Shown: positions 9,801 to 43,208 of the stretch, piece after piece
Layout: the number at the start of each line of letters is the position of its first letter
Numbering within the stretch: the first letter of the stretch is position 1
NCBI GenBank assembly: GCA_017303535.1
Contig: JAFLCO010000006.1
Coordinates: forward strand, 1-51,158
Direction of reading: 5' to 3'
Length of the DNA: 51,158 nt
DNA from: Planctomycetota bacterium
Lineage (GTDB): Bacteria; Planctomycetota; Planctomycetia; Pirellulales; PNKZ01
Made by a program: the position numbers and the translations under genes
Notes under the pieces: model-generated
What the model was told of the DNA's origin: nothing
The model's database searches: none
What the model saw: only the letters and a program-made list of their open reading frames with translations

Positions 9801-12800
9801 CTCGAGTCGGCCGTCGCGCAGATGCCGGGCGACGTCGCCGGTGCGGTACATGCGTGCGCCGATGACGTTGCGAAATTCGTCGCGTACGAAGCGTTCGGCC
9901 GTCAAATCTTCGCGGCCGCGATAGCCGCGGGCCACGCCGTCGCCGCCAATCCAGAGTTCGCCCGGCGTGCCCGGCGGGACCGGTTCGGAAAGATCGTCGA
10001 GAATGTAAATCTGCGTGTTATCGATCGGCCGACCGATGGAGATCGGGCCGTCGAGCGAGGTGATTTGCTCGGCGGTCGACCAGACCGTGGTTTCGGTCGG
10101 TCCGTAGACGTTCCACAGTTCGCGACAGTTGCCGAGCAACGCTTGCGCGAGATCGCGCGGCAATGCTTCGCCGCCGCAGAGAATCTTCACGCGCGAGTCG
10201 CCTTGCCAACCCGAGGCGCGAAGCAAGCGGAAGGTGGCGGGCGTGGCTTGAACGACTGAGACGCCGCGCTTCGAGATATTCTCGGCGAGCCAAGCGCCGT
10301 CGCCCGCTTGCGAGCGCGAGGCTAGGAGAATTTTGGCGCCGACGGTGAGCGGCAGGTACAGCTCCAGCACGCTGATGTCGAACGAGAGCGTCGTAATGGC
10401 GAGCATCACGTCGCAGGGTTTGATGCCCGGCGCCTTGGCCATCGACGACACAAAATTGACGACTGCCTGCTGCGGGATCTCCACGCCCTTGGGCATGCCG
10501 GTCGAACCGGATGTGTAGAGCACGTAGGCTAGGTTTTCGGCATGAGACGAGCGCGGCGGCGCGGATTCGGCATGCTGCGAGATCGCGGCCCAATCGTCGT
10601 CGAGCAGCACAGTGGTTCCGTGGAACTCCGGCAGAACTCCGCGAACGCTTTGCTGCGTGACTAGCACCTTGGCCTGCGAGCTCTCGAGCATGTAGGCCAA
10701 GCGATCGGCCGGGAAGTTCGGATCGAGCGGGACATACGCGCCGCCGGCCTTCCAAACGCCGAGCAACGTCGCCAACATTCGGGGAGTCCGCTCGGTGCTC
10801 ACCGCGACGAGCGACTCCGGCCCGACGCCCAAAGCTTGCAGATGGTGGGCGATGCGATTGGCCGCGCGGTCGAGTTCGCCGTAGGTCAGCGACTCCGCGT
10901 CCCCTTCGACGGCGACGGCATCCGGAGTACGAGAGGCTTGCTGCTCGAACAGATCGACGACGGTCGCCTCGCGCGGGTAATCGACGGCCGTGTTATTCCA
11001 CTCGACCGTGACACGGTGCAACTCTTCCGGCGACAGCACCGACAAGCGAGCTACGGCCTTTTCCGGATCGGCGACGATCGAATCGAGCAATGTCGCAAAC
11101 CGCTCGGCCATCAGCCGCACGGTTTCGCGATCGAAAAGATCCGTGTTGTACTGGAATTGGCAATTGATCGTGTCGCCGGCTTCCACGGCCGTGAGCAAAA
11201 CGTCGAACTGCGCGTCGTGCTGGTCGATCTCCAGGGCCTCGGCTTGAATGCCGCTGAAGGTCATCGCGCCGTCGCCTTGACCGGTCATAAACGACTGCAG
11301 GCCGCGATCCCCCTTCGATTGGGCGCGCTGCAGAATGAACATCGTCTGATAAATGGGCGTCCGGCTCGCATCCCGGGCCGGCGCGAGCTTCTCGACCAAC
11401 AGCGGCAGCGGGTAGTCCTGATGGTCGAACGCCCCGAGCGTCTTCTTGCGAATTTGCTCGAGGAACGCGTTGAACGATGGATTGCCCGAGAGGTCGCCGC
11501 GGATGACGACGGGGTTCACGAAATCGCCGACCAGCGTTTGGAATTCGCGTCGGCTACGGCCGGCCGTCGCGGTGCCGACGAGCATGTCGGTCTGCCGCGA
11601 ATGACGGTAGAGCCACACCTGATAAGCGGCCATGAGCGTCATGAACATCGTGGTCCGCCGGCCCTTGCTCAACTCGCGCAAGGCGTTCGTCGTGGCTGCC
11701 GAAATCGTGACGTACTCGAGATCGCCGCGGTAGGTTTGCACCGGCGGGCGGGGACGATCCGTCGGCAGGTCGAGCGCCGGAAGCGAGCCGGCGAGTTCAT
11801 TTTTCCAGTAGCCCCAAAGGCGGTCGCCCGATTTGCCGGAAACCGTTTCCGCTTGCCACTTCACAAAGTCGGCGTAGTCGGTCTTCAGTTCCGGCAGCGG
11901 CGACGGGGTGCCTTCGACTTCGCTCTTGTAGAGCGCCGTAAATTCGCCGACGCACACGAGCATCGACCACATATCGGAGACGATATGGTGCATCGCGAAC
12001 GTGAGGATGTGCTCGTCCGCCGACTTCTTGAACAGCAGCACGCGGAAGATCGGGCCGTTCTCCAAATCGAACGTGCGATGCACTTCTTGATAGAGAAGAT
12101 CGCGCCACTCTTGCTCGGCCATCGTGGAAATGTCGAGCACTTCGAAGGCGACCTCACCCCCTTCGTGCACCCGCTGCACGGCCCGTCCTTCCGACATGTG
12201 GAAGGTGACGCGGAGTTGCGGATGGCGATCGTACAACCGCTGCAGTGCTCGGCGGAGGGCGTCGTGATTGAGCGGGCCGCGGAAGCGGACGCTGTCGGCG
12301 ATGTTGTAGGCCGTGCTTTGCGGATCGAGCTGATAGACGAACCACATGGCCTGCTGGCCGTGCGACAGCGGGAACTCGCGCACCACGCGCGTCGTACGAC
12401 CGACGGATGCCGCAGCAACGACGGCAGGCGCGGCGCTTGGCAACAAGTCCGTCGGTGCGGCAGACGGTTCGCCGGCCGAAGCCGCAGCCGTCGGGCCGGG
12501 CTCGGTGACCGTGGCGAGCGGCGAAGTGACCGTCGGTTCGCTGGTCGGCGAATCGGAAACGCTGCCGGTCTCGGTCAGATCCCCCATCGCTTCCAGCGCG
12601 TAGCCGGCGAGTTGCGAGAGGCTCGGGCCTTCCAAGAACCGCGACATCGGAATCGTCACTTCCAAGCTCGATTCGATGACGTTCTTCAGCTCGATCACCA
12701 TCAGCGAGTCGAGACCGAGCGAGTTGAGCGGCTGCTGCGTGTCGATCTTTTCCGCGTCGAGTTCCATAACGCGAGCCAACTGCGCGCGGAAGTAAAGTTC

Positions 12801-15800
12801 CAACACGTCGTGGCGTTTGTCGGCGGGAGCGGCGAGGACATCGCTACGAAGTTTGTTCTCGCTCTTGGTTTCGCTCTTTTGCTTGCTGACAAGTTCACCG
12901 AGGAACGACGGCACCGGGCCGACAAACGTCGCGCCGAGTTTTGACCAATCGACGTCCATCACGCCGATGTTAACGGCCGACGATTCCATGAGCCGCTCGA
13001 GCGTCTGCATCGCCGGACCGGGCGGAAGCAGGCCCATGCCCATGGCCGTGAGCCGCGATTCGTCGGCGTTGCGCGCCGCCATGCCGCTCTCGGCCCACGG
13101 TCCCCAGTTAACGGAGAGCACGGGCAACTTGCGGCTTGCGCGATACTGGGCGACGCCGTCAAGAAACGCGTTGCCGGCGGCGTAGTTCCCTTGGCCGGGC
13201 GAACCCAGCAGCGCGGCGATCGATGAGAACAAGACGAAATGTTCGAGCGGCTGATTCAACGTGGCGCGGTGCAAGTTCCAAGTGCCCGCGACCTTCGGCG
13301 CAAGCACGCGGCGCATCTTGGCGCGGTCCATTTGCAGCAGCGCCGCGTCTTCGAGCAAGCCGGCCGCATGGAAGACGCCGCGCAGCGGCGGCGCGGAAGC
13401 GAGTGCATCGTTGAGGGCCCGCGTAACCTGGCCTTCGTCGGCGGCGTCGGCCTTGAGCAGTTGCACGCTCACGCCTTGGCCGCGAAGTTTCGCCAGCACG
13501 TCGATCGCCGGCCCCTTCGGTTCGCTGCGCCCCATGAGCATGAGGTGCCGCGCGCCGCGGCGAGCCAGCCACTGGGCCAACTCCAAACCCAGCGCGCCGA
13601 GGCCGCCGGTCACGAGGTACGAGCCGTCGCCGCGGATGAGTTCTTTCGCAGTCGTCGCCGTCGTATCGGCCGCCGACGTCTCCACGCCGCCGACCTTCAC
13701 GATCACCTTGCCCGTATTGCGGCGACCCTGCATGTAGCGATAAGCGCCGACGACTTCGTCGATCGGGAACACGGTCTTCGGCAGCGGTTGATAACGCTTG
13801 GCGGCGAACTCTTCGACCAGCGCCAGAAACATCTTCTGCACGACCACGGGCTTCTGCCGCAGCATCCGATCGAGATCGATCGCGAAATACGACAGGTTGT
13901 TGTGGAACGGATAGAGCCCGACCATGCGGTTCGAGTAGATGTCGGTCTTGCCGATTTCCAGGAACCGACCGTAAGCCCGTAGGCAGTTGAGGCTCGTCGG
14001 AATGGCTTCGCCCGGAAGCGAGTTGAGAACGACGTCGATTCCTTCGCCGCCGGTGACGTCCATGATCTGTTGGCCGAACGCCAAACTGCGCGAATCGAAG
14101 ACGTGCTTTACGCCGAGCGAGCGGAGGAATTCGCGCTTCGAGTCGCTGCCGGCCGTCGCGAAGACCTCGGCGCCGTATCGTTGGCAAATCTGCACGGCAG
14201 CCAGCCCGACGCCGCCGGCGCCGGCGTGAACCAGCACGCGTTCGCCGGGTTGGATCCGCGCAAGCTCGACGAGGCCGTAGTAGGCCGTGAGGAACGCGAT
14301 CGGAACCGTCGCCCCTTCTTCGTCGGTCAGATGAGCGGGCTTCGGCACGACGGCCCGCACGTTCGTCATCGCGTGCGATGCGAAGCAGAACGGCGCGATG
14401 CCGAGCACTTCGTCGCCGGGCTTGAATTGCGTGACGTTGGAGCCGACCGCCGCCACGCGACCGGCGCATTCGATGCCCATCGGCACGACGCCGCCGCTCA
14501 GGCCGGGGTACAAGCCCATGACCTTGAGTACGTCGGAGAAATTAAGTCCGGTGGCTCCGACTTCGATTTCGACTTCGTCCGGGCCGGGGGCCGTGCGTTG
14601 GAAAGTACGGAGTTGCAGCCGGTCGAGATTGCCGGTGGACGTGAACTCGACGCGGAACGGCTCGCCGCGCGGCACGGAGAGTTTGCTGCCCTTTTTCGTT
14701 TCGGCGGCAACCGGCGTCGCCTCTGTTTTCATATGCCGCAAACGCGGCAAGTAGCGACGACAGGCACGGAAGGCGACTTGCTGTTCCGCCTGCTTCGCAC
14801 CGACTTCAGCCAGCAACAAACCGACGTTCGCATCGACGGCAGCGGCATCCGAAACCGACGGATCGAGATCGACGAGCGTCGCCGTAAATTCCGGCGTTTC
14901 CATCGACACGACACGACCCAAGCCCCAGGTCGCCGCTTGAGCGACGCTTACCGAATCCGTGCCAGGTCGTGATCCATCGACCGTCACGCTCTGCCCACCA
15001 CGCGTTACGAGAAACATTCGTGGCTGTTCGGCCCAGCGAATCTTGCCGGCCGCCTGCACGAGGTCGAGCACGCGTTCCGCGGCCAACGTCTGAGCGCGGG
15101 ACATTGCAGGGCCGTCGAGGTTGTCGCTCACCGCGGCATCGAGCGGCCAGAGATACAGAATGCCCCGGCATTGCGGACGGTCGCCCGGGAACCGCTCGGC
15201 AATGACCTTACGCAGGGCTTCGGCGTCGTCGCCGGCGACCATGTCGGGAGTGATGACGACCGGCTTTTGACTGAGCAGCGTGAGCCGCTCGGCGAGGCGC
15301 GAGCCGACGCCCTGCGAATCGGCGAAAACGAGCCAATCACCGCCGCGAACCTGAATATTCTTAACGGCCTCGGTTGCCGGCATCGGCAGCTCGGCCGCAA
15401 GCCAGCCGGTTTCGTAGAGCCAATCGGCGGAGCGGTCCGCTTCCTCGGCGCGGCGACCGACCTTGCGCAGCTTGAGCCCTCGCACTTCGAGGATCGGCTC
15501 CTCGTCGGCCGTCATCAGGACGACGTCCCCTTCGAGGTTCTCGTGGCGCGGATCGTCGACGCCTGCGGTCAGCCGCGCGTAGCCGTAAAGCTTCGTCGTC
15601 GGCTTGCGGAACACGCGGATACTTTCGGCGCCCATCGGCAAGTAGCTCTCGCCGCTGTTGGCAGGAGCCCAAGCGTCGGGCACCGCCGCGCCGACGACAT
15701 GGAAGCAGCCATCGAGAATCGCCGGATGAACCTGATAGGCCTCGAGACCGGCGCGAATTTGCTCCGGCACTTCCAACTCGGCGACCGATTCGCCTTGAAC

Positions 15801-18800
15801 GCGCCAAACCTGCCGGAGCGTCTGGAAGCTCGGGCCGTAGTCGAGCGAGCGAGCCTTGTAGCGACGGTAGCATTCCGCTTGGTCGAGAATCTCGCCGACC
15901 TTGGCCAACTCCGGCGCAATCTGCATCACCGGCTTCGGGGCGGCAAAGGAAGGGCCGTCTTTCGGCGAAGCGCGGCGAATTGTACCGCCGGCGTGCAACA
16001 TCCACCCGGCGTTGGGATCTGCGCCCGGCGGAAGCTGAAACACCTGGTACGAAGCGTGCCCCGCGACTTCCGGCGAAACGACGACCTGCAGCGCGTGGGC
16101 CTTCGTTTCATTAAGGAACAGCGCCTGTTGAAAGCCGACCTTTTCGACGACATGGGCCCCGTCGCCGAAGAGCGTGTTGGCCGCTTCGAGGCCGAGTTCC
16201 AAGTAGGCGGCGCCGGGAACGACGAGCGAACCCTGCACGACGTGGTCGCGCAAGTACGGCAATCGCTTGACGCTCAACTCGCTAAGGAATTGCGTCATCG
16301 CCACGGCCGACGGAACGCGATTCCCCAAGATCGGCTGCTTGCTGTCGACCCCCTTGGGCGCGAACACAGCGACCGAGCCGGCCTCCGCTTTTTCAACAGG
16401 CTCACCGTCCTTGTCGCCATCCATCCAGAAGCGGCTGCGTTCGAACGGGTACGTCGGCAAGAACACGCGCGAACGGCGGTAGTCGCGATCGAAGCCGCGC
16501 CAGTCGATATTCACGCCGCGAACATGCAGTGAAGCGAGCGCGCCGAGGATCGTTTTCCAATCGTCCTGACCGCGGCGTAGCGACGACAGCCAAAGGCCCT
16601 TGTTGTCGGGCAGGCACTTGCGCCCCATGCCGGTGAGGATCGGCGCGGGCCCAACTTCGATAAAGATTTCGCAGCCGGTTTCGGCCATCGCGCGGACGCC
16701 GCTCGCGAACCGCACACAACCGCGCACATGGTTGCGCCAGTAGCGGGCGTTGGGCTTGTCACCCTCGGCAAAGGCCTTACCCGTGACGTTCGAGATCATC
16801 GCGACTTGCGGCACGTGGTAAACGATACCCTGCGCGAAGCGTTCGAAACCGTCGAGCATCGGATCGAGATGCGCCGAGTGGAACGCGTGCGAGACGGTGA
16901 GTTGCTGGCACATCACGCCGTCGGATTGGAAACGCGTCATCACTTCGTGGACCGCGTCTTCGTCGCCCGAGATGACGATCTGTTCGGGGGCGTTGACGGC
17001 CGCGACAGAGAGCCGATCGCCGTAGGGCTCGATGGCTTCGAGCACGCGATCTTCCGTCGTGATTACGGCAGCCATCGTGCCGCGCGAGGGCAACGATTGA
17101 ATGCGACGGCCGCGTTCGGCGATGAGTTTGAGGCCGTCTTCCAGCGACATCACGCCCGCAATCACGGCCGCCGGGAATTCGCCGACGCTATGCCCCATGA
17201 CGACGTCGGGCCGCAAGCCCCACGATTCCCAGAGTCGGGCCGTTGCGTATTCGATCGAGAACAGAGCCGGCTGCGTGTACGCCGTTTGGTCGATCGTCGA
17301 AGGCTCGACCGCCACGTCGTACAGAACCGAGGTCAACGGGCGCTGCAAGAGCGGACGCAGGATTTGGTCGCAGTCGTCGAGCGCGCGGCGGAAGACAGGC
17401 TGTGTTTCGTAGAGCCCTCGGCCCATGCCGACGTATTGCGAACCTTGGCCGGTGAAAAGGTAGCCGACCTTCGGACGAACGCCGCGGCGAGCCGTACCGA
17501 TCGCCGCCCCGGCGAGCTTGCCCGTATCGGCGAATTGCCGCAGTTGCTCGGCGAGCTTCGCCGACGACTCGGCAACGACGGCCAGCCGTTCGCTCAGATG
17601 CGAGCGACCGACGGCCAAGGTGTGGCTGACGTCGGTAATCGGCAGTTCCGGATGTCGCGCGAGATGCTCGGCGTGCGTGCCGGCGAGCGACTTCAAAGCG
17701 TCGGCGCTATGCGCCGATAGAACCGCAAGTTGCGTCGGTCGCTCGAATTGCGGCTTCGCATCGGCAGGTCGCGCCGGCCAGGCTTCAACGATCGCGTGCG
17801 CGTTGGTCCCGCCGAAGCCGAAACCGCTGATGCCGGCGATGCGCGGACGGTCGCCGGTTTCCCACGGCGTGAGTTCCGTGGGAATCCGCAGGTTTAGGCC
17901 GATCGAGGCGATGTTCGGATTCAGTTCGCGGAAGTTGCGCTGCGGCGGAATCTGCGCGTGCTGCATCATGAGCAGCACTTTGATCAGGCTGGCCGCGCCG
18001 GAGGCGGTTTCCAGGTGGCCGATGTTGCCTTTGACCGAGGCCATATAGCAGGGCGGAGCATCCGCGCCGCGCGTACCGAGCACGCCGTTGAGCGCCGAAA
18101 CTTCAATCGGGTCGCCGAGCGGCGTGCCGGTGCCATGCGCTTCGACGTACGACACTTGCTCCGGCTTCACGCGGGCCTGCGCCAGCGCTTTGCGAACGCA
18201 TTCCATCTGCGACGGGCCGTTGGGCGCCGTCATGCCCGAGGTCTTACCGTCTTGGTTACAGGCCGTGGCGCGGATGACGCCGAGGATCGTATCGCCGTCG
18301 GCGATGGCGTCGCTCAAGCGCTTCAACAGCACCACGCCGCAACCTTCGCCGCGCACATAGCCGTTGGCACTCGCATCAAACGGCTTGCAGCGGCCGTCAG
18401 GCGAGAGCATCCGAGCCTTCGAGAAGGCGACCGTCGTCTCGGGCGAGAGAATGACGTTGACGCCCCCCATGAGCGACATGTCGCAATCGCGATTGCGCAG
18501 GCTTTGCACGGCGTAGTGCAGCGCCACGAGCGCCGACGAACAGGCGGTGTCGACCGAAAGGCTCGGGCCGTGGAAATCGAAGATGTACGAGATGCGGTTA
18601 GCCGCGATGCTCAGCGCGTTTCCGGTGCCGCAATAGGCGTCGATGTGCTGCAGGTAGTTATCGAGGCTCCGGTACATTTGCATGTAGTCGGTGCCGCCGA
18701 TGCCGACGAAGACGCCAGTCTTGGTGCCTGCCGCACGTTCCGGCGAGAGACCGGCGTGCTCCAGCGCTTCCCAGGTACATTCCAAGAGGAGCCGCTGCTG

Positions 18801-21800
18801 CGGATCCATGCGAGCCGCTTCACGGGGCGTGATGCCGAAGGCCCGGGGATCGAATTGGTCGATGTCGTCGAGAAAACCGCCGCGGCGCGTGACGATCTTG
18901 CCCGGCGCGTCGACGTTGGCGTCGTAGAACTCGTCGACGTTCCAACGGTCCGCCGGAATCTCGCGGACTCCTTCGCGGCCTTCGGAAATGAGCTTCCAAT
19001 ATTCGTCGAGATTCTTCGCGCCGGGGAAACGGCAGCCCATGCCGATGACGGCGATCGGCTCGGCTTCGAGCGTGCGCTCGAATTCGACCTCTTCCACGGC
19101 GCCGTCGGAATCCGTGGCCAGATACTTCGCGAGAGCTTCCGTCGTCGGGTAGTCCCACGCCAAGGTCGGCTGCAACGAACGGCCCAGATAGTCTTCGAGG
19201 TCGCCGATCAGGCTGACCATCTGCACGGAATCAAGACCGTAGCTCGTGAACGGCTGACGAACGTCGAAATCGGAGGGCAAAATCTTAAGCTTCGCCGAAA
19301 GCTCTTCGGCTAACCAACGTTCAATCTCTTCCGACGAACGCCGGATAAGCTTCGAACCTTTGCGAAGCATCGAATCGCGATTGGTGACGACTTCCGACTC
19401 TTCATCTTCGAAGTCGTCGTCCTGCACGATCGCCGCGGCATCCGGATTGAGCACCTTTTGCAACGACAGCTGCAAGAGATCCACGTAGCCGTTCTGCACG
19501 CTGCGGAGTGTGGCATCGAAATAGCGTTGATACTTTTCGAAGACCTCGTGGCCGTACTTCCGCGTGATCAGGTCTTTGTTATTGCGGAGGTTCGTGAGCC
19601 AGGCTTCGAGCGTCTTCTGATAGTCGGCACCGGTCGAGCGCCACTCGGCGACTTCGTACAACCCCTTCGAAGCCTCGAGAATTTCATCCTGAAACGGCAG
19701 CGACGAGCCGGGGAACATCTTGGCGATAAACGCCATGTCGGCTTGCGTTTGAATCGTGTCGGCCCGCTTGACGGCGACGACCGTTTGGATGCCGAGGAAC
19801 GCGGTGTCGGAACTGATCTCGTAGCACTTCTGAATAAAGCGGCGATAGACTTCCTTGTGCTTTCCTTGCGCGCGGAGCGCCAGCGGTACGATGTGTTCCA
19901 ACGCGTCGATGCAGACGACGGCGTCGACCTTTTTCTCCGGCTGGAATTCGCGCCAGGAGGCAAGCCGCACCTGGGCCTTATTCGAAGCGCGGCGGCCCGC
20001 GAAGTCGTACTGCGTGCGGCTTGTCGTGAGGCCGGTGACGCGACCGATGTTCAGTTTCTCCGCGGCGAAGCGGAGCATGCCGCCCCAGCCGCAACCGACA
20101 TCGACGACATGGTCGCCTCGCTCGATGCGGGCCAACTGCGACATGCGGCGGAGCTTGTTTTCCTGGGCTTGCTGCAGGTTTTCGGCCCGATCCCACATGC
20201 CTGCGCTGTCGGCCAGATACTCGCCGTCGAAGATCAAACGGAAGAAACCTTCGTCGAGTTCCGTTTCTTGGGCGACGCTCGCCGAGCGCTGACCGCCGAC
20301 GAAGCGCGCCGGTTGCGCGAGTTCGGGCTTCGCGGCGGCTTCCGGCTTGGCAGGCATGGCCGTACCGTTGGTGCCGTGATCGCCGTTGACGTGAACATGT
20401 TCGCCGTTCTTGGTCGACGCAGGCGCGGCCGTTGCGGCGGCAGGAGGCGGGGTAAACTCGTCGGCTTCGTCTTCTTTCGTGTTGATGGCCGCGCCGTATT
20501 TGTACGCCGCCATCACGCCGGTGAGTTTACCTTCGAGGTACAGGGCTTTCGTCGCGCGGCGCTGGATCTTGCCGCTGGACGTCTTCGGAATCTGCCCCGG
20601 CTTCAAGAGCACGATCGAATCGAGCATCAGCTCGTGATCGGCCGACACCGCATCGCGCATCTTTTTGAAAACGCCTTCCGCGTCTTCCAGATGCCGCACG
20701 TTCATTTCGTGAACGATGACCAGCTTTTCCGTGTCGTCTTGTTCGATGGAAAACGCCGCGCCGCTGCCGAGCGCGAGAGTGGCTTCCGCTTTCTGAACCG
20801 AGTGTTCGATATCCTGCGGGTAGTGGTTGCTGCCGCGGATGATGATCAGGTCTTTGATTCGGCCGGTGACGAACAATTCACCGTCGAAGAAGAACCCCAG
20901 GTCGCCGGTTCGCAAGAACGGGCCGTCGCCGTCGGGCAGGTAAGCGCCAAAGGTATCGCGAGTTGCGTCGGCCATCTTCCAGTAGCCCGCCGCGACGCTG
21001 GGGCCTTGGACCCACACCTCGCCGATCGCATCCGGTGCCGAGAGTTGCTGCGATTCGGGATCAACGATGACCACCCGCTGTCCGCCGGCCACGGCGCCGT
21101 TGCCGACGAGCGGTCGCGCATCGGGCGCATCGTTCGGGACCGGGACGACGCGGTGCTGTTCGAGCGCCGTCGCTTCGAAGCTCACATGAACCGGCGGGCG
21201 ATCAGGCCGGCCGCCGGTGACCATGAGCGTCGATTCGGCAAGGCCGTAGCATGGATAGAACGCCTCGCGTTTGAAGCCACAAGGACCAAACGCCGCAGTG
21301 AAGCGTTCGAGCGTTTCATGCCGCACCGGCTCGGCGCCGCAGAACGCCACTTCCCAACAGCTCAAATCGAGCGTAGCCCGTTGCTCGGGCGAAATGCGGT
21401 CGACGCACAAGTCGTACGCAAAGTTCGGCCCGCCGCTGACGGTCGCCCGGTACTTTGAGATGGCGTTGAGCCAGCGCATGGGCCGCTGAATGAAGGCGAC
21501 CGGCGTCATCACCACGGCCGTACTGTCGGCATAGATCGGCTGAATAATGCCGCCGATCAGGCCCATGTCGTGGTACGGCGGCAGCCAAATCACGCCGCTG
21601 GAGTGCGGGCCGTTGCCGAAGAATTGCTTGATCGCTTCGGAGTTGTGCAGCAGGTTGCGGTGCGTGACCATCACGCCTTTTGGCGCCTGGGTCGAGCCCG
21701 AGGTGTACTGCAAGAACGAGAGCGACTCGGAGTTGATTTCCGGCTTTACCCAGGCTTGTTCGATGCCGGGCTCCAGATTGTCGGTCGCCATCCATTGCAG

Positions 21801-22235
21801 CGAGAGCAATTCGGGCACGCCGGCCAAACGCTTGGTGACGTCGGACAAAATCCGCCGTGTCGTCAGCACGAGCGAAGGCTTGGCGTCGGCGACGATCGAG
21901 AGCAGACGCGAAGTCAGCCGATTCATCCGCGGCAAGTAAGCCGGCACGGCGATGACGCCCGCGTACAAACAACCGAAAAACGCCGTGATGTACTCCAGGC
22001 CCGGCGGATAGATGAGAATCGCGCGATCGCCGGCGTTTTGCGAACGCTGCAGCCACGCGGCGATGGCGCGGGCTTGGCGGTCGAGTTCCGCGTATGTCAG
22101 GTTGATTTCATCGGTTTCGCCGTCGGCCAAAAAACGAAACGGCGCATGGTCGGCCCGTTCCGCAGTGCGGCGTTGCAGCAGATCGACGAACGTCTCAATA
22201 TCCACAGGTGCCGATTCCAATGGCGGCTGTGCCAT
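6801..22235 (-). CDS. Hybrid FAAL-PKS-NRPS megasynthase with thioester reductase and acyl-ACP-reductase-like terminus
   Basis: This is a single 5144-residue polypeptide. Order by residue: FAAL (10-575), linker rich in Ala/Pro, cyclopropane-synthase-like methyltransferase (655-930), ACP (Ser1003), KS (Cys1232), AT (Ser1683), DH (His1998, Asp2175), structural KR half (2290-2510), ER (2530-2850), KR (Tyr3018), ACP (Ser3177), C (His3416-3417, Asp3421), A (3755-4245), PCP (Ser4293), thioester reductase (Tyr4534), and an acyl-ACP-reductase-like domain (4745-5144). All key residues I looked for are present up to the reductase. Inferred logic: a free fatty acid is activated and loaded, possibly methylated or cyclopropanated, extended once by malonate with full reduction, amidated with a glycine-like amino acid and released reductively. 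The start at 22235 is preceded by an AGAAGG ribosome site. It is the first gene of a minus-strand operon and diverges from a PQQ-propeller gene 626 bases away. Confidence 0.95.
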   Translation of the reverse strand: MAQPPLESAPVDIETFVDLLQRRTAERADHAPFRFLADGETDEINLTYAELDRQARAIAAWLQRSQNAGDRAILIYPPGLEYITAFFGCLYAGVIAVPAYLPRMNRLTSRLLSIVADAKPSLVLTTRRILSDVTKRLAGVPELLSLQWMATDNLEPGIEQAWVKPEINSESLSFLQYTSGSTQAPKGVMVTHRNLLHNSEAIKQFFGNGPHSSGVIWLPPYHDMGLIGGIIQPIYADSTAVVMTPVAFIQRPMRWLNAISKYRATVSGGPNFAYDLCVDRISPEQRATLDLSCWEVAFCGAEPVRHETLERFTAAFGPCGFKREAFYPCYGLAESTLMVTGGRPDRPPVHVSFEATALEQHRVVPVPNDAPDARPLVGNGAVAGGQRVVIVDPESQQLSAPDAIGEVWVQGPSVAAGYWKMADATRDTFGAYLPDGDGPFLRTGDLGFFFDGELFVTGRIKDLIIIRGSNHYPQDIEHSVQKAEATLALGSGAAFSIEQDDTEKLVIVHEMNVRHLEDAEGVFKKMRDAVSADHELMLDSIVLLKPGQIPKTSSGKIQRRATKALYLEGKLTGVMAAYKYGAAINTKEDEADEFTPPPAAATAAPASTKNGEHVHVNGDHGTNGTAMPAKPEAAAKPELAQPARFVGGQRSASVAQETELDEGFFRLIFDGEYLADSAGMWDRAENLQQAQENKLRRMSQLARIERGDHVVDVGCGWGGMLRFAAEKLNIGRVTGLTTSRTQYDFAGRRASNKAQVRLASWREFQPEKKVDAVVCIDALEHIVPLALRAQGKHKEVYRRFIQKCYEISSDTAFLGIQTVVAVKRADTIQTQADMAFIAKMFPGSSLPFQDEILEASKGLYEVAEWRSTGADYQKTLEAWLTNLRNNKDLITRKYGHEVFEKYQRYFDATLRSVQNGYVDLLQLSLQKVLNPDAAAIVQDDDFEDEESEVVTNRDSMLRKGSKLIRRSSEEIERWLAEELSAKLKILPSDFDVRQPFTSYGLDSVQMVSLIGDLEDYLGRSLQPTLAWDYPTTEALAKYLATDSDGAVEEVEFERTLEAEPIAVIGMGCRFPGAKNLDEYWKLISEGREGVREIPADRWNVDEFYDANVDAPGKIVTRRGGFLDDIDQFDPRAFGITPREAARMDPQQRLLLECTWEALEHAGLSPERAAGTKTGVFVGIGGTDYMQMYRSLDNYLQHIDAYCGTGNALSIAANRISYIFDFHGPSLSVDTACSSALVALHYAVQSLRNRDCDMSLMGGVNVILSPETTVAFSKARMLSPDGRCKPFDASANGYVRGEGCGVVLLKRLSDAIADGDTILGVIRATACNQDGKTSGMTAPNGPSQMECVRKALAQARVKPEQVSYVEAHGTGTPLGDPIEVSALNGVLGTRGADAPPCYMASVKGNIGHLETASGAASLIKVLLMMQHAQIPPQRNFRELNPNIASIGLNLRIPTELTPWETGDRPRIAGISGFGFGGTNAHAIVEAWPARPADAKPQFERPTQLAVLSAHSADALKSLAGTHAEHLARHPELPITDVSHTLAVGRSHLSERLAVVAESSAKLAEQLRQFADTGKLAGAAIGTARRGVRPKVGYLFTGQGSQYVGMGRGLYETQPVFRRALDDCDQILRPLLQRPLTSVLYDVAVEPSTIDQTAYTQPALFSIEYATARLWESWGLRPDVVMGHSVGEFPAAVIAGVMSLEDGLKLIAERGRRIQSLPSRGTMAAVITTEDRVLEAIEPYGDRLSVAAVNAPEQIVISGDEDAVHEVMTRFQSDGVMCQQLTVSHAFHSAHLDPMLDGFERFAQGIVYHVPQVAMISNVTGKAFAEGDKPNARYWRNHVRGCVRFASGVRAMAETGCEIFIEVGPAPILTGMGRKCLPDNKGLWLSSLRRGQDDWKTILGALASLHVRGVNIDWRGFDRDYRRSRVFLPTYPFERSRFWMDGDKDGEPVEKAEAGSVAVFAPKGVDSKQPILGNRVPSAVAMTQFLSELSVKRLPYLRDHVVQGSLVVPGAAYLELGLEAANTLFGDGAHVVEKVGFQQALFLNETKAHALQVVVSPEVAGHASYQVFQLPPGADPNAGWMLHAGGTIRRASPKDGPSFAAPKPVMQIAPELAKVGEILDQAECYRRYKARSLDYGPSFQTLRQVWRVQGESVAELEVPEQIRAGLEAYQVHPAILDGCFHVVGAAVPDAWAPANSGESYLPMGAESIRVFRKPTTKLYGYARLTAGVDDPRHENLEGDVVLMTADEEPILEVRGLKLRKVGRRAEEADRSADWLYETGWLAAELPMPATEAVKNIQVRGGDWLVFADSQGVGSRLAERLTLLSQKPVVITPDMVAGDDAEALRKVIAERFPGDRPQCRGILYLWPLDAAVSDNLDGPAMSRAQTLAAERVLDLVQAAGKIRWAEQPRMFLVTRGGQSVTVDGSRPGTDSVSVAQAATWGLGRVVSMETPEFTATLVDLDPSVSDAAAVDANVGLLLAEVGAKQAEQQVAFRACRRYLPRLRHMKTEATPVAAETKKGSKLSVPRGEPFRVEFTSTGNLDRLQLRTFQRTAPGPDEVEIEVGATGLNFSDVLKVMGLYPGLSGGVVPMGIECAGRVAAVGSNVTQFKPGDEVLGIAPFCFASHAMTNVRAVVPKPAHLTDEEGATVPIAFLTAYYGLVELARIQPGERVLVHAGAGGVGLAAVQICQRYGAEVFATAGSDSKREFLRSLGVKHVFDSRSLAFGQQIMDVTGGEGIDVVLNSLPGEAIPTSLNCLRAYGRFLEIGKTDIYSNRMVGLYPFHNNLSYFAIDLDRMLRQKPVVVQKMFLALVEEFAAKRYQPLPKTVFPIDEVVGAYRYMQGRRNTGKVIVKVGGVETSAADTTATTAKELIRGDGSYLVTGGLGALGLELAQWLARRGARHLMLMGRSEPKGPAIDVLAKLRGQGVSVQLLKADAADEGQVTRALNDALASAPPLRGVFHAAGLLEDAALLQMDRAKMRRVLAPKVAGTWNLHRATLNQPLEHFVLFSSIAALLGSPGQGNYAAGNAFLDGVAQYRASRKLPVLSVNWGPWAESGMAARNADESRLTAMGMGLLPPGPAMQTLERLMESSAVNIGVMDVDWSKLGATFVGPVPSFLGELVSKQKSETKSENKLRSDVLAAPADKRHDVLELYFRAQLARVMELDAEKIDTQQPLNSLGLDSLMVIELKNVIESSLEVTIPMSRFLEGPSLSQLAGYALEAMGDLTETGSVSDSPTSEPTVTSPLATVTEPGPTAAASAGEPSAAPTDLLPSAAPAVVAAASVGRTTRVVREFPLSHGQQAMWFVYQLDPQSTAYNIADSVRFRGPLNHDALRRALQRLYDRHPQLRVTFHMSEGRAVQRVHEGGEVAFEVLDISTMAEQEWRDLLYQEVHRTFDLENGPIFRVLLFKKSADEHILTFAMHHIVSDMWSMLVCVGEFTALYKSEVEGTPSPLPELKTDYADFVKWQAETVSGKSGDRLWGYWKNELAGSLPALDLPTDRPRPPVQTYRGDLEYVTISAATTNALRELSKGRRTTMFMTLMAAYQVWLYRHSRQTDMLVGTATAGRSRREFQTLVGDFVNPVVIRGDLSGNPSFNAFLEQIRKKTLGAFDHQDYPLPLLVEKLAPARDASRTPIYQTMFILQRAQSKGDRGLQSFMTGQGDGAMTFSGIQAEALEIDQHDAQFDVLLTAVEAGDTINCQFQYNTDLFDRETVRLMAERFATLLDSIVADPEKAVARLSVLSPEELHRVTVEWNNTAVDYPREATVVDLFEQQASRTPDAVAVEGDAESLTYGELDRAANRIAHHLQALGVGPESLVAVSTERTPRMLATLLGVWKAGGAYVPLDPNFPADRLAYMLESSQAKVLVTQQSVRGVLPEFHGTTVLLDDDWAAISQHAESAPPRSSHAENLAYVLYTSGSTGMPKGVEIPQQAVVNFVSSMAKAPGIKPCDVMLAITTLSFDISVLELYLPLTVGAKILLASRSQAGDGAWLAENISKRGVSVVQATPATFRLLRASGWQGDSRVKILCGGEALPRDLAQALLGNCRELWNVYGPTETTVWSTAEQITSLDGPISIGRPIDNTQIYILDDLSEPVPPGTPGELWIGGDGVARGYRGREDLTAERFVRDEFRNVIGARMYRTGDVARHLRDGRLECLGRVDHQVKVRGFRIELGEIEAQLAKHSAVKVCVVHTYDRGGDVQLVAYVVPVGEQPMVADLQASLRTKLPEYMVPAQFVFLAELPRTPNGKIDRKALPKPDAGDRSTAYVAPRNTLEAELVEVWKKVLNVEQVGVEDNFFELGGHSLLAAQMAWNLRNKYGVEVPLRNLFESPTIAGIGVLIDPSLRTSGAAVKGIDFEAEAVLDADITPPPGMTADLTRHDRVFLTGGTGFLGTSVLQELLRREGTTIYCLVRAAGDVEGLKKLQDNFSRYGHAHPDFDRRVVPVLGDLEKPRFGLSEASFRDLADRVDVVIHNGASVNLVFPYEMLREVNVGGTKEAIRFACTAKPKPLHFVSTFSVLHSRDHMHSTEVFETEPLPKAEDLLGGYHRSKWVCERLIQEAGRRGLPVAVYRPGRITGHSEKGTANLGDFLHVMIAGCMKLGAVPQFDDPVDMTPIDYVSQAIAALAIDPRAVGKTFHLVNPQPAKLDRLIEFINARGAKLNILPFDAWYRRLSEAAKLVSTPELETLRAMFAAADGGDPSAEDFRFAVSQPRFDARNAETLLASKGIQCAPVDDRLLETYFEFLVDSDHIEVDEVTGELDFSHIQIDTRPPLTLFASGKIEQVDAVALAYLPSSLLRHTGLPPEMAIELGTQGVPAVASTLNTTEGRIAAILLPRFDFQLYEDREQVLTEAIDALRIAKHMRAKCVSLTGLLPSALDYGRALVDAARGLDLPLITTGHATTTATVVMTIRRALALAGRNLAEEQVSFLGLGSIGTSTLRLMLSALPHPQQLSFCDIYSKRSQLETLLAEIRSGLHYRGPAAILESRKEAPAEIYQSRVIVGATNVTDLLDIAKLQPGTIIIDDSAPHCFRTEDAFARLDKQGDILFTEGGVLMAPAPIPQTAFVSPFVKQLLDTDPVKMMAQGHPQHITGCILSSALTLKYSDLAATIGIATLEENLRHFHKLTEIRYDAGMLHCDGRLIDEAAIARFREKFGKSS
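6804..8003 (-). other. Megasynthase C-terminal domain: long-chain acyl-ACP-reductase-like
   Basis: Residues about 4745-5144. The pattern follows cyanobacterial acyl-ACP reductase: a helical segment with SLTGLLPSALDYG, then ITTGHATTTATVV, a Rossmann loop FLGLGSIGTSTLRLML, SRVIVGATNV, TIIIDDSAPH and FTEGGVLMAP. The cysteine that forms the acyl-enzyme intermediate in cyanobacterial enzymes (after the GGV block) is not seen at the equivalent place. I infer a nucleotide-binding reductase or dehydrogenase-like role of unknown substrate. Confidence 0.65.
8031..9143 (-). other. Megasynthase domain: thioester reductase
   Basis: Residues about 4365-4735. An extended SDR with VFLTGGTGFLGTSVLQELL, serine/threonine in HFVSTFSV and Tyr4534-Lys in GGYHRSKW. 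Such R domains release the carrier-bound acyl chain as an aldehyde (two-electron) or alcohol (four-electron) using NAD(P)H. Confidence 0.92.
9246..9473 (-). other. Megasynthase domain: peptidyl carrier protein
   Basis: Residues about 4255-4330, with the phosphopantetheine site Ser4293 in FFELGGHSLLAAQM. Confidence 0.95.
9501..10973 (-). other. Megasynthase domain: NRPS adenylation, glycine-like code
   Basis: Residues about 3755-4245. Core motifs YTSGSTGMPKG, NVYGPTETTVW, YRTGD and NGKIDRKAL are present. Reading the ten specificity positions by motif alignment (SFDISVLELY, VVQATPATF, ILCGGEAL, NVYGPTETTVW, final Lys) gives D-I-L-Q-L-G-V-V-W-K, close to the known glycine code DILQLGLIWK. The substrate prediction is from memory of published codes. 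Confidence 0.85.
11061..12383 (-). other. Megasynthase domain: NRPS condensation
   Basis: Residues about 3285-3725. It opens with FPLSHGQQAMWFVYQL; the catalytic HHxxxD motif is MHHIVSDMW (His3416-His3417, Asp3421); VGDFVNPVVIRGD is the later latch motif. It would join the polyketide acyl chain to the amino acid on the PCP. Confidence 0.93.
12591..12818 (-). other. Megasynthase domain: ACP 2
   Basis: Residues about 3140-3215, with Ser3177 in LGLDSLMVIELKN. A Pro/Ala/Ser/Thr-rich linker (about 3215-3280) separates it from the condensation domain. Confidence 0.92.
13041..13643 (-). other. Megasynthase domain: ketoreductase
   Basis: Residues about 2865-3065. NADPH motif YLVTGGLGALGLELA, catalytic Ser in LFSSIAALLGSPG, Tyr3018 and Asn in GQGNYAAGNAFLDG. 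The LED tripeptide after HAAGL retains the Asp of the LDD motif seen in B-type ketoreductases. Confidence 0.9.
13686..14648 (-). other. Megasynthase domain: enoyl reductase
   Basis: Residues about 2530-2850, preceded by a catalytically empty KR structural half (about 2290-2510). The MDR-type NADPH site reads VLVHAGAGGVGLAAVQI near residue 2670, and the domain ends with RRNTGKVIVKV. Confidence 0.92.
15456..16343 (-). other. Megasynthase domain: dehydratase
   Basis: Residues about 1965-2260. The double hot-dog motifs are intact: His1998 in DHVVQGSLVVPG (HxxxGxxxxP) and Asp2175 in HPAILDGCFH (DxxxH), with LDYGPSFQ between them. Confidence 0.88.
16566..17468 (-). other. Megasynthase domain: acyltransferase, malonyl-type
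   Basis: Residues about 1590-1890. It starts with FTGQGSQYVGMG; the active Ser1683 is in GHSVGEF. The specificity motif is HAFH (in SHAFHSAHLDPM), which by family rule indicates malonyl-CoA rather than methylmalonyl-CoA. Confidence 0.92.
17781..19064 (-). other. Megasynthase domain: ketosynthase
   Basis: Residues about 1058-1485. Cys1232 in VDTACSSALVAL, histidines in VEAHGTGTPLGD and KGNIGHLETASG. A complete type I PKS ketosynthase. Confidence 0.95.
19116..19350 (-). other. Megasynthase domain: ACP 1
   Basis: Residues about 962-1040, with the phosphopantetheine site Ser1003 in YGLDSVQM. It receives the FAAL-activated acyl chain. Confidence 0.92.
19446..20273 (-). other. Megasynthase domain: cyclopropane-fatty-acid-synthase-like methyltransferase
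   Basis: Residues about 655-930. The SAM-binding motif VVDVGCGWGGMLRFAAEK begins at residue 710 and is followed by VTGLTTSRTQYDFA and CIDALEHI. This is the CFA synthase/mycolic methyltransferase class, which adds a methyl or methylene group to an acyl double bond. It sits between the FAAL and the first ACP, so the loaded fatty acyl chain is the likely substrate (inference). Confidence 0.85.
20511..22208 (-). other. Megasynthase domain: fatty acyl-AMP ligase
   Basis: Residues about 10-575. The adenylation P-loop reads QYTSGSTQAPKGVMVTH (near residue 177), followed by WLPPYHDMGLIGG and YGLAEST, then KTSSGKIQRRATK near the end. The HDMGLIGG block and overall pattern are those of fatty acyl-AMP ligases that load a free fatty acid onto a downstream ACP without CoA. 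Confidence 0.9.
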
Positions 22236-38632: not shown

Positions 38633-39325
38633 CTAAATCACGTCGCGGAAGCTCTTCACTCCCACAGTCTCGCGGCACATAAACGGCTCGCCGTACCGCA
38701 CGCCGATCGACCATCCCCAATAAGCGGCCTGATCACGCAGCCGGTCGATCATCGTCGGCGGCTCCTGCGAGCGGCCCGTGATAAACTGACTCTCGAAGCA
38801 GCGAATGGCCGCTTCCTTCTGCTCCCAGTACGCCGAGATATCGACGACGAACGCCGGCTTCTCGACGACGCGGAGATGCACGCAGTTGTAATTCCAGATC
38901 CGCTCGGGAAAGAACGGCTCCCCCGGCATGTCGGTCTTCGTGAGCTTCGCCCAAAACTTCGCGGCCTCGATCAACCCGACCGCAGCCACATGATCGGGAT
39001 GCGCGTCGACCCAATACGGCGCGAAGAGCCACCGCGGCCGGAGTTCGCGAATCTTGCCTGCCAGCAGTGCCCGCGCTTCGAGCGTATGTTCGAGTTTGCG
39101 GTTGGTCAGGCCCAAGTTCCCCCGCCAATCCACGCCAAGGATCGCCGTCGCCGCCGCCGTCTCGCGAGCCCGAATTTCCGGCGTGCCGTGCGGCGTTGGT
39201 TCGCCGTTGGTCAGGTCCAAAATACCGACGCTCATGCCGTCGGCTTTCATCTTCAGTATGGTGCCGGCCATCCCGAGTTCGGCGTCGTCGGGATGCGGGG
39301 CGATGATCAGGGCGTCGAGCGACAT
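38633..39325 (-). CDS. bshB1: BshB1/LmbE-family N-acetylglucosaminyl deacetylase
   Basis: The 230-residue protein begins LDALIIAPHPDDAELGMAGT, where the His-Pro-Asp-Asp motif supplies zinc ligands; a second zinc histidine is in VDAHPDHVAAVGLI. Further BshB1-like blocks are VGILDLTNGEPTPHGTPEIR and ILGVDWRGNLGLTNR. In bacillithiol synthesis BshB1 deacetylates N-acetylglucosaminyl-malate. No other bacillithiol genes (bshA, bshC) are in the window, so the exact substrate is assigned by family only; another LmbE-type deacetylase role is possible. It is transcribed toward a cloverleaf repeat 3 bases downstream. Confidence 0.85.
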   Translation of the reverse strand: MSLDALIIAPHPDDAELGMAGTILKMKADGMSVGILDLTNGEPTPHGTPEIRARETAAATAILGVDWRGNLGLTNRKLEHTLEARALLAGKIRELRPRWLFAPYWVDAHPDHVAAVGLIEAAKFWAKLTKTDMPGEPFFPERIWNYNCVHLRVVEKPAFVVDISAYWEQKEAAIRCFESQFITGRSQEPPTMIDRLRDQAAYWGWSIGVRYGEPFMCRETVGVKSFRDVI

Positions 39326-39471
39326 TAGCGGTTCCTCTTAACGTTGTCTTCACATCATTGCCGGCGATGGTTTTTGGGGCAACTGGCCTAGACGCATCCG
39401 GCGACATTTGCGACAGTCCGCCCCGCAACCTTTCTCCGTCACTTCTTGGGCCGCGAAACTCCGAGTCTGCC

Positions 39472-39702
39472 GTGCACGTCGCTCTTCGCCGATCACTGCT
39501 GCTGCCGCTGGTTGCGACGCCCGCCGTCGCGCTGGGGGCCGCCATGTTCGTCGGGTGCAACAACGTGAACGTCCGCGGCGACGGCCTGCCGGAAACCTTC
39601 ACCGATTCGGCCAAAATCAAACGGCCCGACGAGAAGGAATCGAAGCCCTTCGGCTTCTCGCAAAAAGCCCGCGACATCGAAGCCGACCTCGGCGTGAAGT
39701 AG
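39472..39702 (+). CDS. Small probable lipoprotein
   Basis: The family is not recognised. From the GTG at 39472 it encodes about 76 residues: an Arg-containing N-region, a hydrophobic stretch (SLLLPLVATPAVALGAAMF) and a lipobox-like VGC, then a short polar tail rich in charged residues (GDGLPETFTDSAKIKRPDEK). The frame is open to 39358, but the upstream part is less protein-like. It is divergent from the deacetylase gene. The start and lipid modification are uncertain. Confidence 0.5.
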   Translation: MHVALRRSLLLPLVATPAVALGAAMFVGCNNVNVRGDGLPETFTDSAKIKRPDEKESKPFGFSQKARDIEADLGVK

Positions 39703-40028
39703 CCGAGCGCCGCCGCTTCCCCTTCTTTCTCGTTCGATACCGCCCCAGGCTTGCGGATGCGCTGGAATTAGCCGGGCCCCCGGCATTTCAATTCCGGCCG
39801 ACGTTATTCGCGGCCCTGTCTCCAGCCGCGTTACCGATCCGCACAACCGTCAGCGTCGGAATTCTTCCGGCGTCGGCGGCGGAAAACGGCGTAAATCCGG
39901 CCGGCAGTGTCTTTTAAGGGGCTTTTCCGGGGGTTACAAATAATCAAACTGGGCAGCCGTTGCCGACGCGGCAAACTTGGCAAGCATCCCCTCTTAGCGC
40001 CCTTTTAACGCCCCTCAACGAGCTTCGC
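39703..40028. other. Spacer before the M32 fusion gene
   Basis: About 326 bases without a supported gene. The last 120 bases are slightly richer in A and T (including TTACAAATAATC near 39935) and may contain the promoter of the fusion gene, but no clear -35/-10 pair was found. Confidence 0.4.
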
Positions 40029-42845
40029 ATGCCCGATTTCGATTTCCTCTCCGATCTCGATTCGAATAAGCCCGACGATTCCAAGAAGCCGGATGACGCC
40101 GCACCTGCGGCGGAGAAGAACGAAAAATTTGACGTCGATCTGAGTTTTCTCGACGAGCCGAAGACGGAGTCCGAGAAGGTCGCAGAAGCCATGTCTGCCG
40201 AGGCCGACTTGTTCGGCGAAGCCGTCGGGCCCGTCGCCGGAGATTCCGCTGGAATTTCCGCAGGGCTTGAAAGCTCGCTGGCCGACGACCCTCTGGCCGA
40301 TGCGCTGAGCGAACTCGATATCGAAGCTTCGCCGGCCGCGACACACGAGCCGACGCCCGAGATGTCGGCCGACACGACCGGCGCGCTAAGCGAAGATGCC
40401 TTCGCAGATTTTCTCGTCGGCGACGACAAGCCGGCAACACCCGATGCGTCGATGCCCGAAGTATCTGCCGCCGGCGGCGATGCCGAGATTCTCGATTTCG
40501 GCACCCCGTCGGAAACCGCCGCCGCGTCGGAACCCATCGACGAAATTGCGCCGCTGCAATCCGACTCCACGTTTCGCTGGGAAGATCGGGACGCCGACGA
40601 ACCACTCGAGCACGGATTCGGCCCGGCCGCGGATTTTGGCGTGAGTACGCAAGAGACGGCCGTTGGAATTCCTGCGGCCGAACAACCGACCCATGACGAA
40701 GTGAAATCCGATCCTGCGGAGATTGCCGCGATTGTCGGCGGTGCGCTCGGCGTGGCAATGGTCGCTCCCGAGGTGATGGCGCCCCCTGCCCCGGCTTGGG
40801 AACCGCCGACGATCGTCGAAGAGCCGCTGCCGCCCGCCCCCGACGTGGAAGACCCGGCCTATCCGGCCTACGAACAACTCACCCAGCACTTCCGCCAAAC
40901 GTCGCTGCTCGGCGGCATTGAAGCGGTGCTCGGCTGGGACGAACGCTGCATGATGCCCGCCGCCGGCACCGACACGCGGGCCGAACAAATCACGCTCATG
41001 TCCGGTCTCATTCACGAGCGGCTCACCGACACTCGCATCGGCGGTTGGCTCGACAATCTCAAAGACTCTCCGTTGGCCGCCGATCCGCACGGCGAGGCCG
41101 GCACCACGATTCGCCAGATCCGCCGCCAGTACGAGAAGCGGAGCAAGCTCCCGAAGTCGCTCGTCGAAGAGCTGGCCCACACGGCGGTCGTCGGCCAAGC
41201 CAAATGGCAAGAAGCTCGGCAGAACAACGACTTCGCGGCCTTCGCCCCTGTGCTCGAAAAGATGGTTCGCCTAAAGCGCGACCAAGCCGACGCCTTGGGC
41301 TACGCCGAAACGCCGTACGACGCGCTGCTCGACGAGTTCGAACAAGGCGAGCAAACCTCACGGGTCACGCAAGTACTCGGCGCGTTGCGCGATGAACTCG
41401 TGCCGCTCGTCGCTCAGATTCGCGACAGCGGCCGGTCGCCGCGCGTTGAAATCCTCGAACGCCGGTACCCCGTCGAACTCCAGCGCGCCTTCGGTCGCAA
41501 GGCGGCCGATCAGATCGGCTTCGATTTCCAACGCGGCCGGCTCGACGTCACCGCCCACCCGTTCTGCACCGGGCTCGGTCCGAACGATTGCCGCATCACC
41601 ACGCGGTACGACGAAAACTTCTTCAACTCCGGCTTCTTCGGCATTCTCCACGAAGCCGGCCACGGCATTTACGACCAAGGGCTCCGCGCCGATCAATATG
41701 GCTTGCCGCTCGGCGAAGCCGTGTCGATGGCCATCCACGAGTCGCAATCGCGAATGTGGGAAATCATGGTCGGCCGCAGCTTGCCGTACTGGCGCGGCCA
41801 ATACGCTTCGGCCCGTCGTACGTTCCACGAAGCGCTCGCCGGCGTAACGCTCGGCAATTTCTATTTCGCCGTGAACGACGTTCGCCCGTCGCTCATTCGC
41901 GTGGAAGCCGACGAGTTTACGTACAACCTGCACATCTTGATTCGCTTCGAACTCGAACAGGCCCTGATCAACGGCGAGTTGGCCGTCGCCGATTTGCCGG
42001 CGGCTTGGAACGAAAAGTACAAGAGCTACCTCGGCATCGACGTGCCGAACGACGCCGACGGCGTGCTCCAAGATATTCACTGGAGCGCCGGCCTCTTCGG
42101 CTACTTCCCCACTTATTCGCTCGGCAATCTCTACGCCGCACAATTCTTCGAACAGGCCGACAAAGACCTCGGCGGCCTTGCGCAGCAATTCGAGCGCGGC
42201 GAGTTCCAGTACCTCAAGCGCTGGCTCAACGTCAACATCCACCGCCACGGCCAACGCTATACGGCCGCGGAACTCGCCGAGCGCATCACCGGCGCTCCGC
42301 TCTCGCACGAACCGCTCATGCGGCACCTGCGGGCCAAGTACGACTTGCTCTACAGCCCTCAAGCCGAAACGTTCGTCGAACTTGACGTGCCGGATGCCGA
42401 CGCGATGGGCACGTCGGTTATTGATGAACCGCAAGGGGGCGTGGCGATGCACGACGTCGGCGACGTCGGCGGCTACGGCCTCGCCACGGAACCGGGCTTC
42501 GACGGCATGGCGGTCGGCGGCGGTATGGCGGCGTCGGCATCGACGACTTACAAACCGACGCGCATCAAGCAGAAGCCAAAGGCCTCGGCCGCGGGCATGA
42601 TCATCGTCTTCGGCGGCATCATAATCGGCGGCATCCTGGGCATCGCGCTCGGTCTCTACATCCTGATGTGGATCAAAGGCCCCGAGCAGGGAGATATTCT
42701 GAAGGTCCGCGACAAACTACCCGCCTGGATGATCCCGGCCGGCCCCGCTTCTGAAACCCCGGCCTCGACCAGCGGCGCTGACGCTTCGACAAACGGCGGC
42801 CCGCAATCGCCGGACAACAGCGGCGCGCCGGCGGTGAACCCGTAG
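40029..42845 (+). CDS. Membrane-anchored fusion protein with internal M32 carboxypeptidase domain
   Basis: From the ATG at 40029 this is 938 residues; the frame is open to 39960, but the N-terminus MPDFDFLSDLDS looks like the natural start. Residues about 1-275 are acidic, Ala/Pro/Glu-rich and probably disordered. Residues about 279-780 form a complete M32 (Taq-type) metallocarboxypeptidase: YEQLTQHFRQTSLLGG, VLGWDERCMMP, HPFCTGLGPNDCRITTRY, zinc motif HEAGH at 541-545, and HESQSRMWE. One transmembrane helix lies at about 855-883, followed by a 55-residue tail. M32 enzymes are normally soluble proteins of about 500 residues that remove C-terminal amino acids. With a single C-proximal helix and no signal peptide, the enzyme domain would face the cytoplasm. 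The anchored, extended layout is unusual. Confidence 0.88.
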   Translation: MPDFDFLSDLDSNKPDDSKKPDDAAPAAEKNEKFDVDLSFLDEPKTESEKVAEAMSAEADLFGEAVGPVAGDSAGISAGLESSLADDPLADALSELDIEASPAATHEPTPEMSADTTGALSEDAFADFLVGDDKPATPDASMPEVSAAGGDAEILDFGTPSETAAASEPIDEIAPLQSDSTFRWEDRDADEPLEHGFGPAADFGVSTQETAVGIPAAEQPTHDEVKSDPAEIAAIVGGALGVAMVAPEVMAPPAPAWEPPTIVEEPLPPAPDVEDPAYPAYEQLTQHFRQTSLLGGIEAVLGWDERCMMPAAGTDTRAEQITLMSGLIHERLTDTRIGGWLDNLKDSPLAADPHGEAGTTIRQIRRQYEKRSKLPKSLVEELAHTAVVGQAKWQEARQNNDFAAFAPVLEKMVRLKRDQADALGYAETPYDALLDEFEQGEQTSRVTQVLGALRDELVPLVAQIRDSGRSPRVEILERRYPVELQRAFGRKAADQIGFDFQRGRLDVTAHPFCTGLGPNDCRITTRYDENFFNSGFFGILHEAGHGIYDQGLRADQYGLPLGEAVSMAIHESQSRMWEIMVGRSLPYWRGQYASARRTFHEALAGVTLGNFYFAVNDVRPSLIRVEADEFTYNLHILIRFELEQALINGELAVADLPAAWNEKYKSYLGIDVPNDADGVLQDIHWSAGLFGYFPTYSLGNLYAAQFFEQADKDLGGLAQQFERGEFQYLKRWLNVNIHRHGQRYTAAELAERITGAPLSHEPLMRHLRAKYDLLYSPQAETFVELDVPDADAMGTSVIDEPQGGVAMHDVGDVGGYGLATEPGFDGMAVGGGMAASASTTYKPTRIKQKPKASAAGMIIVFGGIIIGGILGIALGLYILMWIKGPEQGDILKVRDKLPAWMIPAGPASETPASTSGADASTNGGPQSPDNSGAPAVNP

Positions 42846-43001: not shown

Positions 43002-43208
43002 CGTAAGTCGCGCAAGCGAATTGGGACTTACGTCGATGCGCACTGCGTACATTTGGACCGGAGTGCGTACTTCGCGCGCGAAAAAGTGCGCACCGCATAC
43101 TTAGGAATTAAGGGTGCGCACTCTTTTCGAAAAGAGTACGCACTCGTAATTGCAACAGAATTGCGCTTTCGTCGTAAGTCGCGCAAGCGAATCGGGACTT
43201 ACGTCGAT
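43002..43208. repeat. Pair of 36-base palindromic repeats bracketing GTGCGCAC units
   Basis: Copies at 43002-43037 and 43173-43208 differ at one base, and each carries the inverted pair CGTAAGTC/GACTTACG. The 135 bases between them contain recurring GTGCGCAC, GTGCGTAC or GTACGCAC motifs, the palindrome TTCGCGCGCGAA (about 43072-43083) and a long hairpin at 43114-43143 with 15-base arms and one mismatch. Only two unit copies exist, so it is not a CRISPR array. Confidence 0.8.

Follow-up and report, generated by a model that had tools for sequence, protein, structure and literature searches.

Carboxypeptidases of family M32 are usually regarded as compact soluble enzymes. The solved relatives of the protein described here, such as those from Thermus thermophilus (PDB 3hoa and 5wvu) and Bacillus subtilis (3hq2), are chains of 489-510 amino acids without extra domains. 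Membrane anchoring is found in ACE2, where one transmembrane (TM) helix serves as the anchor and the enzyme faces outwards. How M32 enzymes relate to ACE2 has been described (PMC7044196). In the literature searched, no relevant description of M32 in planctomycetes or of membrane fusions of M32 was found.

The window analyzed here, a stretch of 51,158 nucleotides from a member of the Planctomycetota, contains an open reading frame (40029-42845, forward strand, as are all features of the protein given below) with a stop-free translation of 938 amino acids, in which an M32 enzyme is preceded by an acidic N-terminus and followed by a TM anchor; its solved relatives lack both. An alternative TTG start at 39960 is possible; the start used here, MPDFDFL, is conserved in four of four congeners. 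The M32 (carboxypeptidase Taq) domain lies at residues 279-776 (40863-42356). Peptidase_M32 (PF02074) is the single Pfam domain, matching residues 283-771 over the entire profile (1-489 of 489, E 1.3e-180), and the motifs of the family, HEXXH, HES, HPF, RITTRY and GxxQDxHW among them, are all present: HPF at 510, RITTRY at 522, HEAGH at 541, HESQSR at 570, IRVEADE at 623 and VLQDIHW at 679. The zinc-binding HEXXH motif is HEAGH (residues 541-545, 41649-41663), with HESQSR after it at 570-575. The sequence matches PDB entry 5wvu (E 1.4e-148), and the AlphaFold2 model superimposes on 3hoa in a Foldseek comparison with a TMt of 0.94 and an rmsd of 2.0 over 508 columns at 46% identity. The window enzyme thus has the same full-length domain, motifs and fold as the Thermus and Bacillus proteins, and by family it should be a metal-dependent carboxypeptidase. 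ACE and ACE2, which belong to family M2, have the same broad fold and HEXXH chemistry but form a separate family, with 12-14% identity. A preliminary description of this DNA had recognized a complete M32 metallocarboxypeptidase of about 500 residues, and the full profile and motifs bear this out. The enzyme part is an ordinary M32; what is unusual is the architecture, seen so far in one genus.

On the N-terminal side of the enzyme, residues 1-250 (40029-40778) form an acidic extension, delimited by composition, congener alignment and a pLDDT of 29-49, and are predicted by AlphaFold2 to be disordered. Over residues 1-279, D and E total 66 vs 11 for K and R. Directly before the enzyme is a conserved arm (residues 251-278, 40779-40862), of which about 27 residues (251-277) are predicted to be ordered (pLDDT 80-97); residues 226-279 are 47-78% identical among the congeners. 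Of the acidic, disordered N-terminus of 275 residues described earlier, the acidity therefore stands, but the disorder extends nearer to 250 residues, since 251-277 are predicted to be ordered. The pLDDT of the M32 domain is mostly above 90. It is followed by a linker (residues 777-853, 42357-42587; pLDDT below 50 at 793-852), in which the congener alignment reveals a conserved GGVAMxDxGDVGGY motif and a K/R-rich stretch that immediately precedes the TM helix. The TM helix itself (residues 854-883, 42588-42677) is recognized by hydropathy, by homologues and their alignment, and by a 30-residue helix modeled with moderate confidence; the top 19-residue hydrophobic window, 858-876 (mean 2.59), is the sole strong hydrophobic segment of the protein. 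The short tail of 55 residues (884-938, 42678-42842), defined by alignments of homologues and congeners, contains an LPxWMxP motif and then an unconserved, low-complexity end. Domain and topology predictions thus agree with the earlier proposal of a C-proximal TM helix and with its view that the M32 enzyme is, unusually, part of a membrane-anchored protein.

The window is one contig of a draft genome of 573 contigs, and an artefact of assembly or gene calling that joined two adjacent genes might be suspected. However, each of the four genomes examined from the genus has the same architecture: the window genome and three others, whose uninterrupted open reading frames of 918, 905 and 976 residues are 67-73% identical to the window protein and keep the same upstream neighbors: a BshB1, an uncharacterized protein of 356 residues, a tyrosine recombinase and an NtrC-type regulator. 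The four congeners with the same frame rule out an assembly artefact, and the probability that two genes were joined by error in any form is negligible. Rough dN/dS values, obtained by simple counting at high dS, lie at 0.08-0.15 in M32, 0.23-0.44 in the first 279 residues, 0.20-0.51 in the linker and 0.15-0.39 in the TM region; the final 33 residues (past 906) look unconstrained. Judged from these sequence comparisons, the fused frame is under purifying selection across the genus. No second M32 gene was found in the genus.

Surveys for M32 with extra parts covered 77 relatives and, more widely, 296 genomes from the order and 199 from the phylum. Among the matches listed for the order (about 150) and the phylum, no M32 outside the genus has this tail or carries the extra parts of the fusion in one uninterrupted frame; in all three sets, the listed M32 matches outside the genus end close to residue 776-785 or continue across stop codons into another frame. 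A layout general to the M32 proteins of the phylum, which would have spoken against the preliminary description, is ruled out among these matches, and the fusion has been seen so far in this genus alone. Long open frames in six genomes (G020, G045, G053, G131, G134 and G169) proved to be unrelated upstream frame extensions. In a tree of 65 M32 domains the four fused proteins form one clade (support 100/100), and nearest to it are two stand-alone M32 enzymes of the same family (genomes G004 and G005).

The C-terminal part of the fusion is homologous to an uncurated family of planctomycete membrane proteins, here called the partner. A 65-residue query spanning the TM segment has matches in 36 of the 77 genomes, counting its own genome and the three fused congeners; the remaining matches fall in free-standing proteins, about 100 to 870 residues long, and reach E-values down to 2.5e-11. 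The fusion protein has the TM segment with the GG pattern and the LPxWMxP motif by which the partner family was recognized, and with a profile built from partners and fusions the fused congeners score 1e-20 to 1e-23. No Pfam family covers the TM segment or last domain of the partner, and zinc-ribbon models match it weakly. Free partners typically have an N-terminal CxxC...CxxC zinc ribbon (present in most), often an acidic linker, a K/R-rich stretch and one TM helix. Many also have a C-terminal domain, putatively OB-like, which is optional and absent from the partners of G005, G009 and G042. In the model of one such protein (G016), a zinc ribbon comes first, then a disordered region and a helix (271-301); the domain at the end resembles OB folds at a Z of about 7.5, which is only suggestive of such a fold. 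The TM segment and the LPxWMxP motif that follows it are homologous between the fusion and the partner family, whereas neither the zinc ribbon nor the OB-like domain is present in the fused proteins, which carry an M32 upstream; in the window protein only 55 residues come after the helix. The partner of G005, with a tail of 71 amino acids, resembles the fusion in having no OB-like domain.

The partner lies downstream of a stand-alone M32, on the same strand and within 3 kb, at 27 of 61 loci, 26 of them within 500 bp; the 61 loci were partly picked for partner hits, and 27/61 is thus not an unbiased rate. G005, of the same family as the fusion genus, has an M32 with a separate partner 311 bp downstream, and in relatives a BshB1 gene commonly diverges upstream of such pairs. 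As each genome has just one partner hit or two, the adjacency of M32 and partner in many families is not due to chance. No free partner gene was found in the fusion genus. Given that the partner is already directly downstream of M32 on the same strand in many relatives, a collinear fusion requires fewer steps than an insertion would, and the simplest reading of these sequences is that a head-to-tail fusion of neighbors fits better than insertion of an enzyme into a membrane protein.

The preliminary description had favored insertion, taking the N- and C-terminal parts together as one independent planctomycete membrane protein. In that case, an M32 gene would have entered the acidic linker of a partner, leaving two halves of the former protein at either end. 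This would be in keeping with the free partners, in which an acidic linker is followed by the same TM segment, and with some partners of family f8, which have no zinc ribbon and begin with an acidic stretch. However, in relatives M32 already sits immediately before the partner, often with BshB1 on its other side, and the N-terminal extension of the fusion has no zinc ribbon. Furthermore, when the extension profile was compared with partner linkers, the best real score was 3.4 bits vs 6.4 for shuffled controls. A search for the flanking parts without the peptidase thus recovers the C-terminal part as a separate gene, a member of the partner family, but for the N-terminal part no partner linker above shuffled controls. 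The view that the two flanks are halves of one protein is unproven because of this lack of homology, and we regard insertion as improbable. A hydrophobic stretch at 232-250 was also considered as a relic of a TM segment and rejected; it scores at most 3.4 bits, and block shuffles score higher.

The N-terminal extension has a distribution of its own. It is also present in a genome of a sister genus (G006), on a contig that breaks off within the enzyme at about residue 478. The four fused proteins and this fifth one form one clade (support 100/99), so that one origin of the extension suffices. By these sequence relationships, the extension is a gain additional to the C-terminal fusion.

Taken together, these results suggest the following history. 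The starting state, which is often seen in relatives, is an M32 gene with a second gene next to it on the same strand, encoding a protein with a zinc ribbon, an acidic linker and one TM helix. The acidic disordered N-terminus would have been gained once, before the split from the sister genus, which shares it as seen up to residue 478. In the ancestor of the genus, judging from gene order and homology, the stop codon of M32 and the zinc ribbon of the partner would have disappeared, so that the enzyme came to run on into the partner's TM helix and short tail. A catalytically ordinary M32, tethered to the membrane through fusion with its downstream neighbor, is the best explanation of the whole and one that we consider probable.

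The surroundings of the gene have features of their own. The divergent upstream neighbor is a BshB1-like deacetylase (38633-39325, reverse strand; NCBIfam TIGR04001 above cut-off, and synteny), which keeps its place beside M32 through much of the order. Between it and the fusion lies a small open reading frame (39358-39702, forward strand) of uncertain start, supported by synteny and conserved in G002, G003 and G006. Downstream, between the fusion gene and a phosphofructokinase gene, are two 36-nt direct repeats (43002-43037 and 43173-43208), 171 bp apart and with inverted arms at their ends. Their 31-mer core has 80 copies in the same genome (0 for a control pattern), often paired about 170 bp apart, three copies each in G002 and G003, and none in G001 or G005; the repeats are a lineage-expanded MITE- or REP-like element. 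Elsewhere, the window encodes a hybrid polyketide/non-ribosomal peptide synthase of 5144 residues (6801-22235, reverse strand), with a CMAS-type methyltransferase after the first AMP-binding domain and, late in the chain, a reductase domain of the NAD-binding, male-sterility type.

From the K/R-rich stretch that precedes the TM helix, the N-terminal side is predicted to lie inside. In 38 of 40 free partners the residues before the helix carry a more positive net charge than those after it, which likewise predicts a cytoplasmic enzyme. The fused M32 is thus likely to be tethered at the inner face of the cytoplasmic membrane, where it would remove C-terminal residues from peptides, perhaps close to sites of peptide uptake or protein turnover. 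Unlike ACE2, which faces outwards, the window enzyme is predicted to face the cytoplasm, and the anchoring common to the two would, by this comparison, be convergent.

The joining may instead have been neutral, tolerated without functional effect, with the enzyme merely carried to the membrane or proteolysed off its anchor. The linkers are predicted to be disordered, and much of the N-terminus, like the tail past residue 906, shows little conservation, as might be expected in such a case. However, the TM region and the GGVAMxDxGDVGGY motif are conserved in four species with a dN/dS well below 1, and a stop-free frame has been maintained through deep synonymous divergence; a neutral fusion therefore seems unlikely.

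One published account (PMC4921024) presents gene fusions as strong in-silico evidence that two proteins are functionally associated. Because fusions carry this signal, M32 and partner probably cooperate where they are separate, and the fusion is "Rosetta stone" evidence for such cooperation in related planctomycetes, in which the partner would act with a separate M32 as an anchor or scaffold. The partner is also found away from M32 in some genomes, where its gene neighbors have no obvious common theme by eye, and without a detected M32 in five genomes of genus g22 (L084, L088, L089, L095 and L096). Consequently, it is not a dedicated M32 anchor, and because the g22 genomes keep it without an M32 match, it has a role beyond M32. 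A more tentative idea, possible but well short of probable, is that throughout the order the partner serves as a general scaffold at the membrane for the breakdown of peptides in the cytoplasm, and that the fusion is a self-contained, possibly regulated membrane-bound M32, with the last 27 residues of its acidic disordered arm packing on the enzyme. A genus in which the sole detected M32 is fused to an anchor that elsewhere is often encoded next door offers a concrete, testable functional link for an uncharacterized membrane protein found repeatedly in the order. It is also a clear case of gene neighbors turning into one protein.
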